The notes below the pieces were generated by a model. The model saw nothing but the letters and a program-made list of their open reading frames with translations. It was not told the origin of the DNA and made no database searches. A DNA stretch of 64,000 nucleotides from the NCBI GenBank assembly GCA_021732665.1, contig JAKFUL010000005.1:1-64000 (forward strand). Direction: 5' to 3'. The number at the start of each line of letters is the position of its first letter. Position 1 is the first letter of the stretch. Positions 11,106 to 14,532 of this stretch are shown one piece after another. Made by a program: the position numbers and the translations under genes. Source of the stretch: Acetobacteraceae bacterium. Its GTDB lineage: Bacteria > Pseudomonadota > Alphaproteobacteria > Acetobacterales > Acetobacteraceae.

Positions 11106-12317
11106 ATGGATTTCTCTCTCCCCCCGGAACTGGATGCCAGGCGCGCCCGGGTGCGCGAATTCGTCCAGGACCGGCTGATCCCGCTCGAAGCGGAGCGTGC
11201 CAGCTATGACGAGCACGAGAACATCTCTCCGGGCCTGCTGCGCGTGCTGCGGGGCGAGGCCAAGGCGGCCGGGCTTTGGGCCTTGCAAAGCAAGCGCGAG
11301 CGTGGCGGCGGGGAACTGCCCTTCATCGGCATGGCCGCCTGTTATGAGGAGATGAACCGCTCCATCTTCGGCCCCGTGGTGTTCAATTCGGCCGCGCCCG
11401 ATGACGGCAACATGATGGTGCTGGAGCGCGTGGCCACACCCGCGCAGAAGACGCGCTGGCTGCAGCCGATCATCGATGGGGCGATCCAGTCCAGCTTCGC
11501 CATGACCGAGCCGGACGGCGCCGGCTCCGATCCCGGGCTGACCTACACGCGGGCCGAACGGGTGGGGAATGATCGCTGGCGGATCACCGGCCGCAAATGG
11601 TTCATCACCGGCGCGGGTGAGGCCACGCATTTCATCCTGATGGCGCGCACCAGCGATGACGCCCGAAAGGGGCTGACCGCCTTCCTCTTCCACAAGGATT
11701 CCCCTGGCTGGAAGATCGTCCGCCGCATTCCGATCATGGGGCCGGAGGAGCATGGCGGGCATTGCGAGCTGGAATTCGACGGGCTGGAAATCCCCGACGA
11801 GGATATCCTCATGGGTGTCGGCGATGGGCTGAAGCTCACGCAAATCCGCCTCGGCCCCGCCCGCCTCACCCATTGCATGCGCTGGACGGGCATGGGCCGC
11901 CGGGCGCTGGAAATCGCCCTGGAGCACATCGAGCAGCGCATGAGCTTCGGCCAAAAGCTGGCGGAGCGCGAAAGCGTGCAGGGAATGGTGGGGGAGGCGG
12001 CGATGCAGCTGGACATCTCCCGCCTCGTCACCATGCGGGCAGCCTGGAAGCTGGACCAGGGCGATTTCGCGCGGAAAGAAATCTCCATCGCCAAGATCGT
12101 CGCCGCCGATGCGCTGCACCGCGCGGCCGACACGGCGCTGCAATTGCTGGGTGCCAAGGGATACTCCAAGGACACGCCCATCGAGTGGATGTACCGCTAC
12201 GCCCGCCAGGCGCGGCTGGTGGATGGGGCGTCGGAGGTGCATCGCATGGTGCTCGCCAATTTCCTGCGGCGCGAGGGGCGGGAGTTCTTCGGCTGGGGCG
12301 TGCCCGGCCATGGATGA
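11106..12317 (+). CDS. Acyl-CoA dehydrogenase (ACAD10/11-like neighbourhood)
   Basis: MDFSLPPELDARRARVREFVQDRLIPLEAERASYDEHENISP...AMTEPDGAGSDPGLTYTRAERVGNDRWRITGRKWFITGAGEATHFILMART... Confidence 0.93.
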   Translation: MDFSLPPELDARRARVREFVQDRLIPLEAERASYDEHENISPGLLRVLRGEAKAAGLWALQSKRERGGGELPFIGMAACYEEMNRSIFGPVVFNSAAPDDGNMMVLERVATPAQKTRWLQPIIDGAIQSSFAMTEPDGAGSDPGLTYTRAERVGNDRWRITGRKWFITGAGEATHFILMARTSDDARKGLTAFLFHKDSPGWKIVRRIPIMGPEEHGGHCELEFDGLEIPDEDILMGVGDGLKLTQIRLGPARLTHCMRWTGMGRRALEIALEHIEQRMSFGQKLAERESVQGMVGEAAMQLDISRLVTMRAAWKLDQGDFARKEISIAKIVAADALHRAADTALQLLGAKGYSKDTPIEWMYRYARQARLVDGASEVHRMVLANFLRREGREFFGWGVPGHG

Positions 12318-13314
12318 AGGGCGGCTCTCCGCCTGGCTCTCTGACGCGGCCGGCGCGCCGGTGGCCATTCTCTCCCACCACCGGCTCTCCGGCGGCGCCA
12401 TTCAGCAGAATGTTTTTTTGGGCGTGACGCGCGGCGGCGTGGCGGAGGAGTGGGTGTTGCGCACCGACAACACCGCCACGCTGGCTGTCTCGCTCGGCCG
12501 CGGCGCGGAATTCGCCCTGCTGCGCGCCGCCCATGCGGCGGGGGTGACGGTGCCCGAACCGCTCTTCGGTTGCGAGGATCGCGGCGTGATCGGCGCGCCC
12601 TTCTTCGTCATGCGCCGGGTTGCCGGAAGTGCCACGGGGCATGCCGCGGCAAAGCGCGCGGCGGCGATGGGCGGCGATGCCGCGCTGGCCGGGGATCACG
12701 GCCGCCAGCTCGCCCGAATCCACAGCATCCGCCCGCCGCGCGCGGACCTGGCCTTCCTGGGTGCGCCGCCGGCCGACGCCACCACCGCCTTCATCACCCG
12801 CATGCGCGGCCGCCTCGATGACGCGGGCACGCCCCGCCCGCCGCTGGAATACGGGCTGCGCGCCATGGAACTGCATGCCCCGCCGCCCCTTCCGCCAGTG
12901 CTCTGCCACAATGATTTCCGCACCGGGAACACCATGCAGCAGGAAGGCCACATCACCGCGGTACTGGACTGGGAATTCGCCGCCTGGGGCGACCCGCATG
13001 AGGATCTCGGCTGGTTCACCGCGCGCTGCTGGCGTTTCGGGCAGTACCATCTCGAGGCCGGCGGCATCGGCCCGCTGGACGCATTCCTGGCCGGCTATGC
13101 CGCCGAGGCGGGCTGGCAGCCCGACCCCGCGCGAGTGCGTTTCTGGCAACTCGGCGCCACCATCCGCTGGGCTGTGATCGCGGCCGACCAGGCGGCGCGC
13201 CATCTCTCAGGGCGGGAGACCAGCCTGGAACTGGCGCTCACCGGCCACATGGTGCCGGAACTGGAATGGGATGTGCTTGATCAGGCGGAGGCCTTGCATG
13301 CAGGAAAAGCCTGA
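12310..13314 (+). CDS. Phosphotransferase (APH/choline-kinase-like) family protein
   Basis: MDEGRLSAWLSDAAGAPVAILSHHRLSGGAIQQN...PPVLCHNDFRTGNTMQQEGHITAVLDWEFAAWGDPHEDLGWF: HNDFRxGN catalytic loop and DWE motif; 8-nt overlap with upstream ACAD. Confidence 0.92.
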   Translation: MDEGRLSAWLSDAAGAPVAILSHHRLSGGAIQQNVFLGVTRGGVAEEWVLRTDNTATLAVSLGRGAEFALLRAAHAAGVTVPEPLFGCEDRGVIGAPFFVMRRVAGSATGHAAAKRAAAMGGDAALAGDHGRQLARIHSIRPPRADLAFLGAPPADATTAFITRMRGRLDDAGTPRPPLEYGLRAMELHAPPPLPPVLCHNDFRTGNTMQQEGHITAVLDWEFAAWGDPHEDLGWFTARCWRFGQYHLEAGGIGPLDAFLAGYAAEAGWQPDPARVRFWQLGATIRWAVIAADQAARHLSGRETSLELALTGHMVPELEWDVLDQAEALHAGKA

Positions 13315-13582
13315 CCCCCGGAACCTGCTGGAAACCGCCCGCGCGGTGCTGCTGGAGCGGCTGCTGCCCGTCCTGCCCGAATCTGCCCGTCTGGAAGCGC
13401 GCATGGTGGCCAGCGCCATGGCCATCGCGGCCCGTGGCATAGGCGCGGCCGATGAGGCGCCGGAGCCCGAACTCGGCGCCGCCATCCGCGCCGGCCTGTT
13501 GGATGATGACCCGGGCCTGCTCGTACGCCTGCGGGAGACCGCGCGCGTGCGTCTGGCCGTCAGCAACCCCCGCGCCCTTTGA
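13298..13582 (+). CDS. DUF6285-like small protein
   Basis: MQEKPDPRNLLETARAVLLERLLPVLPESARLEARMVASAMAIAARGI...LGAAIRAGLLDDDPGLLVRLRETARVRLAVSNPRAL; follows and overlaps the phosphotransferase. Confidence 0.75.
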   Translation: MQEKPDPRNLLETARAVLLERLLPVLPESARLEARMVASAMAIAARGIGAADEAPEPELGAAIRAGLLDDDPGLLVRLRETARVRLAVSNPRAL

Positions 13583-13590
13583 AAACGCAG

Positions 13591-13618
13591 AAGGCCCGGC
13601 GGATCACCACCGGGCCTT
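13591..13618. terminator. Putative bidirectional intrinsic-terminator-like hairpin
   Basis: Perfect 9-bp stem AAGGCCCGG (13591-13599) / CCGGGCCTT (13610-13618), between a plus-strand gene end and a minus-strand sORF end. Confidence 0.6.
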
Positions 13619-13653
13619 CCCATCGCGTGCGCCCCAGGGGCGTCGCGGCGATC

Positions 13654-13725
13654 TTACAGCGCCATCTCCAGGGAAACGGCGGCCAGGGCCGCGAAACCGT
13701 TCGGGGACATCAGGCAATGAGACAC
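13654..13725 (-). CDS. Candidate 23-aa small ORF (GTG start)
   Basis: GTG TCT CAT TGC CTG ATG ... GCG CTG TAA = MSHCLMSPNGFAALAAVSLEMAL; AGGAGG is 7 nt before the GTG within UGAAAGGAGGUGAUCCAG. Confidence 0.5.
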   Translation of the reverse strand: MSHCLMSPNGFAALAAVSLEMAL

Positions 13726-13742
13726 TGGATCACCTCCTTTCA
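13725..13742 (-). promoter_or_regulatory. Extended Shine-Dalgarno element, complement of the 16S rRNA 3' tail
   Basis: Minus strand TGAAAGGAGGTGATCCAG is the reverse complement of CTGGATCACCTCCTTTCA, which matches the typical alphaproteobacterial 16S 3' end. Confidence 0.65.
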
Positions 13743-13789
13743 GCATGTTGAGATACCGAAATGGTGTCTCCATCGCTGATTGAAAGGCC

Positions 13790-14317
13790 TCAGACCTTCT
13801 CGACCTGGCCATATTCCAGATCGACGGGGGTGGAGCGGCCAAAGATGCTCACCGAGACCTTCACGCGGCCCTTTTCCTCGTCCACTTCCTCGACCGTGCC
13901 CATGAAGCTGGTGAAGGGGCCGTCGGCCACGCGGATCTGCTCGCCCACCTCGTACTGCACGGCGGGGCGGCGCGGCTTGTCGGCGCCCTCCGTCACTTGC
14001 TGAACAATACGAAGCGCCTCGGCCTCGGAAATCGGCGTGGGCTTGTTGGCGGGGCCGAGGAAGCCGGTGACCTTGGGGGTGTCGCGCACGAGGTGCCAGC
14101 TGTCATCGGTCATCTGCATCTTCACCAGCACGTAGCCAGGGAAGAATTTGCGTTCAGTATCAGTCTTCTGGCCGCGGCGGACTTCGGTGACCTGCTCAGT
14201 CGGAACCAGGATTTCCTCGATCTTGTCGGCCAGGCCTTTCTGGGCCGCCTGCTGGCGGATCTGCTCGGCGATCTTCTTTTCGAAGCCCGAATAGACGTGC
14301 ACCACGTACCACTTCAT
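13790..14317 (-). CDS. nusG: Transcription termination/antitermination protein NusG
   Basis: [29 protein letters not shown]...[51 protein letters not shown]. Confidence 0.97.
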
Positions 14318-14340
14318 ATCGGCCACAGCCTGATCGCTCC

Positions 14341-14532
14341 TCAAAACCCGAACACAAATCGCATCGCGAACTGGATCACCTGATCCACCACCAGAAAGAA
14401 CACCGCCGCCAGGGCGGACAGCGCCAGCACCAGCCCTGTCGTCACCAGCGTTTCCTTGCGGCTGGGCCAGGTGACGCGCGCGGTTTCGGCCCGGACCTCA
14501 CGGACGAACTGCGCTGGATCGAACTTCGCCAA
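14341..14532 (-). CDS. secE: Preprotein translocase subunit SecE
   Basis: [55 protein letters not shown]; located upstream of nusG. Confidence 0.95.

Follow-up and report, generated by a model that had tools for sequence, protein, structure and literature searches.

A divergent CC2171 RNA in an Acetobacteraceae genome as a candidate docking site for 30S ribosomal subunits

Introduction

Why should a frame of 23 codons be preceded by the complement of the whole single-stranded 3′ tail of 16S rRNA? The question arises in a 64,000-nt stretch of an Acetobacteraceae genome (contig JAKFUL010000005.1 of assembly GCA_021732665.1), hereafter called the window. Its minus strand reads TGAAAGGAGGTGATCCAG at positions 13742-13725, and this Shine-Dalgarno (SD) region complements the entire tail. 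A GTG at 13725-13723, 7 nt past the AGGAGG of this region, starts the frame MSHCLMSPNGFAALAAVSLEMAL, which ends at 13654.

On re-reading, the sequence and coordinates given in a first-pass annotation for the SD, the GTG and the 23-codon frame proved exact. The hairpin that it placed after the ORF is also present, but not with the 9 bp reported: we count 13 pairs (13619-13607 with 13602-13590, one of them G-U), and the T tract that follows is weak (TGCGTTTTC). From the opposite side, two plus-strand genes converge on the element: an APH-type phosphotransferase gene (12109-13314), then a DUF6285 gene (13271-13582).

Table 1. Features of the element and its surroundings in the window.
Feature	Positions	Strand	Basis
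Whole RNA element	13591..13749	-	Match to Rfam RF01867 (CC2171), model positions 1-159; 66.5 bits, E 4.4e-12 / 2.4e-13, gathering score 75
Extended SD, complement of 16S rRNA 3′ tail	13725..13742	-	17 nt of conserved tail plus one
Class-wide nearly invariant 15-nt core GAAAGGAGGTGATCC	13727..13741	-	Conservation across copies
Proposed toehold, first 7 nt of core	13741-13735	-	GAAAGGA left free by mimic pairing in relatives
23-codon ORF, GTG start, TAA stop	13654..13725	-	Sequence
Helix P1, 5′ strand UCUCAUUGC	13714..13722	-	Rfam pairing, covariation, fold
Helix P1, 3′ strand GCGAUGGGA	13618..13626	-	Rfam pairing, covariation, fold
Degenerate 16S-tail mimic CTGGCCGCC	13678..13686	-	One-base shift relative to relatives; weak SD pairing here
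Terminator-like hairpin, 13 pairs, loop TGAT, weak T tract	13590..13619	-	Overlaps last two bases of P1
nusG (Pfam NusG)	13790..14344	-	Upstream of element, same strand

Results

The window assembly is 69% complete, in 53 contigs. We searched it for a 16S 3′ end to match and found none: the sole GAAAGGAGGTGATCCAG that it holds, allowing up to 2 mismatches, is the window element itself. All five same-family relatives whose 16S was read (5/5) share one end, GGCTGGATCACCTCCTTTC-A-AGGA, within GGCTGGATCACCTCCTTTCAAGGA. Because they do, the 18-nt match to 16S claimed at first pass holds, as 17 nt inside the conserved tail plus an A. With helix 45 of 16S bounded as is well established, the portion after it, UGGAUCACCUCCUUUC, is the complement of SD positions 1-16.

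An exact 17-mer of this kind is expected by chance about 3e-6 times in 64 kb, counting both strands, and the predicted energy of the SD:16S pairing is -35.4 kcal/mol. The complement stops where the tail stops: SD position -1 is under no constraint to match the pre-16S flank. A stray 16S fragment was considered and rejected, as the similarity ends at the complement (CAG-TG, against CAG-CC in 16S) and the remainder is CC2171. The full 17-bp duplex extends into the start codon; it must therefore partly open for initiation and cannot persist during it, so the extra pairing looks suited to docking or displacement, not to initiation itself.

Judged by its covariance-model match, the window element is a homologue, and a divergent copy, of Rfam RF01867 (CC2171), a Caulobacter sRNA. 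It matches the model over its full length at 66.5 bits (E 4.4e-12); since this lies below the Rfam gathering score of 75, we class it as a divergent homologue and not as a curated member. L042, a relative in the same bacterial family, passes this cut-off with 88.4. The window is identical to the model consensus at GAAAGGAGGUGAUCC and at the GUGUCUCAUUG core, and it carries the P1 helix by which the family is recognised (CAUUGYC with RACAAUG before the terminator).

To map its distribution, 150 Acetobacteraceae genomes were searched for GAAAGGAGGTGATCCAGNG. Two types of site came up: 16S itself (CAGCC), and GAAAGGAGGTGATCC[A/G/T]GTG followed by a short frame and a terminator, the latter usually once per genome. 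Matches occur in 74 of the 150 genomes, some of them via 16S only, which places the element in close to half of those sampled. A wider search found it in other alphaproteobacterial families. Named genomes were scanned as well, and copies turned up in Sphingomonas, Novosphingobium, Methylobacterium, Bosea, Azospirillum, Brevundimonas, Microvirga, Roseomonas and other genera. Among 296 genomes of the class, the covariance model matches in 62 and the pattern search in 64 (reversed control: 0), a prevalence of about 20%. Of 150 genomes sampled outside the class, none matched RF01867 at 1e-3 or lower. At first pass the SD match was called exceptional; it is, and it looks functional. With the element conserved in close to half of the sampled Acetobacteraceae and some 20% of the sampled alphaproteobacterial genomes, the conservation check proposed at first pass comes out positive, and its frame and start codon are conserved too. 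Two copies are present in some genomes: in G161 (contig C1: 805104 and 2921849) their SDs end in GATCGA and GATCCG.

What the roughly 200 copies have in common is a 15-nt complement of the 16S tail that hardly varies, then a start codon with its short frame, and a P1 helix that links codons 2-4 with the terminator base. In 198 distinct copies there is next to no variation at SD positions 1-15, while any of the four bases can stand at position 16, and the start codon, whose first base is position 17, opens with G, A or T; the near-invariance is inflated, since many copies were collected by pattern. Copies found by the covariance model and not by the pattern keep 14-17 of the 17 SD positions, together with the short frame.

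In P1, which belongs to the Rfam structure, the beginning of the frame (codons 2-4) is paired with the segment that precedes the terminator, at the terminator base. With both strands anchored by sequence, its columns 4-9 hold 314 Watson-Crick cells against 243 +/- 10 (maximum 275) in 2,000 permutations, a significance that is overstated because the permutations ignore the relatedness of the sequences. Column 4 shows T-A, C-G and G-C. Other orders, read by eye, appear to rebuild the helix in different letters, for example GTGATT with AATCAC in L115. The window P1, UCUCAUUGC:GCGAUGGGA, is predicted in both the minimum-energy and the centroid fold (fold z = -3.9). Plain minimum-energy folds of 14 copies gave mixed structures and were set aside as evidence.

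Comparison of the copies points to a second helix beyond the Rfam structure, which is new here. Many frames hold C-TGG-ATC, a piece of 16S tail sequence that as such complements SD positions 11-17, so that the RNA contains a mimic of the tail to which its SD is complementary. In a peptide alignment, blind to the SD, SD position 16 and the first base of the mimic codon form A-T in 69 of 87 copies, G-C in 7, T-A in 1 and G-T in 1, with 9 mismatches; this covariation rests on few independent changes, as most G-C cases belong to one Acetobacteraceae group and the others are single or paired cases. Most other mimic-facing SD positions are held from varying by 16S. The base before the TGG/CGG codon, a silent position and the partner of G17, is C in 76/82 copies versus 443/1,250 (35%) at other fourfold sites, and in 27/27 of a second set.

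When 67 copies are aligned without gaps, 92.4% of the cells of the SD:mimic helix are paired, versus 25-60% when the strands are slid, and position 16 forms AU in 43, GC in 9 and UA in 1. RNAalifold proposes the same helix unprompted. Exact 6-bp complements of a copy's own SD occur in 64/198 copies as six sequence variants: ATCCAG:CTGGAT (52), ATCCGG:CCGGAT (5), ATCCTG:CAGGAT (3), ATCCAA:TTGGAT (2), ATCCCG:CGGGAT (1) and ATCCGA:TCGGAT (1). A7 of the SD is unpaired in 86 of the 87 TGG/CGG-type copies, where the mimic has the sequence of the 16S tail; GAAAGGA therefore stays open.

Predicted pairing of SD and mimic reaches -17.8 kcal/mol in L042. In the window the mimic is shifted by one base and its Trp is lost: CTGGCCGCC is predicted to pair at -10.8 kcal/mol, no better than shuffled sequences (z = 0.0), and the minimum-energy fold contains P1 and lacks the SD:mimic helix. 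With so weak a mimic, the self-lock of this copy may be weakened and the switch described below partly lost; its SD, start, frame, P1 and terminator hairpin have all been preserved.

A clear TGGATC mimic is absent from the sphingomonad copies (18 codons, SD ending in CCG-ATG) and from several other lineages. Sphingomonads (L187, L199, L230 and others) have an 18-codon type of their own, MSHGSAxRSV..., with a CATGG:CCATG P1, and several share neighbour genes. In L183 (G306) a long piece of 16S tail, CACCTCCTT, follows the short frame, which suggests that some lineages moved the mimic downstream.

Frames across the copies are mostly 18-26 codons long and are well kept: frame 0 is open for 15 codons in 196/198 copies, versus 109 and 162 in the other two frames, and the mimic lies in the same phase in 96/100. 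In 43 close pairs, codon positions one to three carry 77/82/68 substitutions, and the fraction of synonymous changes, 0.257, compares with 0.287 expected without selection; over these pairs (183 changed codons, of limited power) no purifying selection on the peptide was detected. Between orders, the peptides differ completely. Both observations speak against a functional 23-aa protein, which the first-pass annotation had entertained. A frame that is kept while its peptide shows no detectable selection suggests that translation itself, and not its product, is what counts.

Azospirillum-type copies, whose products have 57-59 aa, are possible exceptions. Behind the same SD, L227 and L256 (Azospirillum) and L065 have frames of 56-59 codons; these encode a hydrophobic stretch resembling a signal peptide (MSHGAxPV...LFGLAALLTAG...), as if the frame had turned into a real exported small protein.

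Neighbour genes differ among the copies, all four combinations of orientation are common, and no neighbours are common to all; the largest group with shared neighbours is confined to sphingomonads. The element is therefore a gene of its own. We rejected a leader or attenuator of a neighbouring gene, given the lack of a conserved downstream gene on the same strand and of shared neighbours. In L087 (1692-1788), a copy of the GGTCCG-ATG form precedes the small SRP RNA gene by about 50 nt on the same strand.

Among the nusG loci examined, the element stands behind nusG only in the window genome and its congener G141, so neither synteny with nusG, named at first pass as a point to check, nor nusG-linked regulation holds as a general rule. 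Congener G072 has a plain terminator in its place, and the other displayed nusG loci are without it. The G141 flanks differ from those of the window, and SD, GTGTCTCATTG core, P1 and hairpin are intact in both. The copies have a CAACAAC-like leader upstream, where a weak -35/-10 pattern also shows when they are averaged. A sigma-70-like promoter was looked for in the window copy and none was recognisable; given so poor a promoter, this copy may be transcribed together with nusG. Nothing was found in support of a plus-strand anti-SD mimic, another early proposal: the 16S-tail mimic often sits in the minus-strand RNA's own frame instead.

Discussion

We now propose a model to which we give an even chance: the locus would be a divergent, free-standing CC2171 RNA that docks 30S subunits and locks itself, and not a peptide gene. 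The element would be a free-standing transcript of about 150 nt, with a 5′ part complementing the entire single-stranded 16S tail, on which a 30S subunit could dock very tightly. In many relatives the RNA would close on itself, its in-frame mimic pairing with SD positions 8-17. Together with P1 (codons 2-4 with the terminator foot), this pairing would make a pseudoknot in which the start region is covered and GAAAGGA exposed. A 30S subunit would land on these 7 nt and displace the mimic, which it could do because mimic and 16S tail have identical sequence; the arrangement resembles a toehold switch with the 16S tail as trigger. Docking would allow the short frame to be translated, and the RNA would be held open whenever a ribosome moves through the mimic. 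The selected trait would then be ribosome docking and translation rather than the peptide.

Sequence comparison shows the homology, the complementarity, both helices, the conservation of the frame, the lack of detectable selection on the peptide and the lack of shared neighbours. From these we infer docking, switching and any downstream effect, which might be to sense or titrate 30S subunits or to control how far the RNA is available as an sRNA. Holding of 30S subunits, one of the first-pass suggestions, is possible and belongs to this model.

The same observations can be read in other ways. An extended SD could drive very strong translation of a short functional peptide, as the conserved frame, start codon and SD spacing, the M-S-H-C and Trp common in the peptides, and the long Azospirillum-type copies with their signal-peptide-like stretch would suggest. 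We nonetheless think a coding gene improbable: besides the missing synonymous bias and the complete difference of peptides between orders, swaps of Trp to Arg go together with the paired SD base, and the window copy does without the Trp. An sRNA that base-pairs with other mRNAs, using the SD-like stretch or the mimic as contact region and translated incidentally, would explain a free-standing gene with a terminator and no shared neighbours. Rfam files the family as an sRNA, and Caulobacter sRNAs with anti-SD-like motifs exist (SisA-D, PMC12559287). The conserved stretch of CC2171 is, however, SD-like (a complement of 16S) and not anti-SD; it fits 16S over its full length with 15 nearly invariant positions, and a conserved frame and start codon would be superfluous for an ordinary sRNA, which makes this reading, too, an unlikely one.

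We rate two further explanations lower still. The RNA could help in 16S 3′-end maturation or quality control, pairing with pre-16S or with the 30S tail to protect it or test its completeness. The complement does end with the tail, leaving SD position -1 unconstrained against the pre-16S flank, and this tail also contains GAUCACCUCC, which Era reportedly recognises (Tu et al. 2011, cited in PMC6943124). Since such a role would leave conserved frame, start codon and optimal SD spacing unexplained, we hold it to be quite unlikely. The chances seem equally slim that the window element is a decaying 3′UTR relic, its hairpin now used chiefly to terminate the tuf/secE/nusG region. Its place right behind nusG, the lack of a promoter-like site, the weakened mimic, the score below the cut-off and the plain terminator of G072 would fit; yet decay should remove the SD first, and this copy has kept its SD, GTGTCTCATTG core, P1 and hairpin, as has that of G141 with its different flanks.

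CC2171 is a small RNA kept across a large bacterial class and filed as noncoding. Its most conserved part complements the whole free end of 16S, and its frame is translatable, with a peptide under no detectable selection. As an RNA it is mentioned in the Rfam structure update (PMC11701678) and in a Mesorhizobium sRNA list (PMC5596092); we found no further mention in open-licence literature, which is weak evidence of absence. Part of Schrader et al. 2014 (PMC4117421) describes two previously predicted Caulobacter ncRNAs as translated, names not being given in that part. The docking model gives this orphan Rfam family a concrete hypothesis: sensing or holding of small ribosomal subunits. A bolder and rather doubtful extension, built on the same comparisons, is that CC2171 RNAs could be natural 30S-triggered switches, the conserved output of which would be to catch 30S subunits and let them go again by means of a 16S 3′ tail copy inside the RNA. 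If true, CC2171 would sense or buffer free 30S subunits, or else 16S tails that are intact; we found no description of such an RNA regulator.

With RF01867 as described by Rfam, the window copy shares the CAACAA-type 5′ leader, SD, GTGTCTCATTG start, P1 helix and terminator in a whole-model match; it differs in scoring below the gathering score and in lacking a TGG-type mimic. Rfam treats the family as a noncoding RNA, with a structure that does not include the SD:mimic helix. Synthetic toehold switches combine an exposed toehold with strand displacement by a trigger RNA. Judged by sequence, the putative sequestering helix of TGG/CGG-type relatives would likewise leave a toehold, whereas pairing is weak in the window copy; the proposed trigger would here be the 16S tail itself, and displacement is inferred. 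Leader-peptide attenuators such as peTrpL (PMC7298713) also join a very short ORF and a strong SD to a terminator, but the CC2171 element has no conserved downstream gene, and its neighbours and orientation vary. Pseudoknotted standby-site mRNAs such as tisB (PMC7708055) let the 30S subunit dock before a structured start region, as we propose here, and a pseudoknot is involved in both; tisB is a toxin mRNA with a far-upstream single-stranded site, whereas in CC2171 docking would take place on the SD itself and no toxin is seen. Finally, extended-SD mRNAs, for example in Staphylococcus aureus (PMC13009471), show SD-antiSD pairing beyond the usual length that affects start choice. Those are ordinary mRNAs and sORFs, whereas CC2171 is a stand-alone RNA that combines a complement of the whole tail with a self-pairing mimic.
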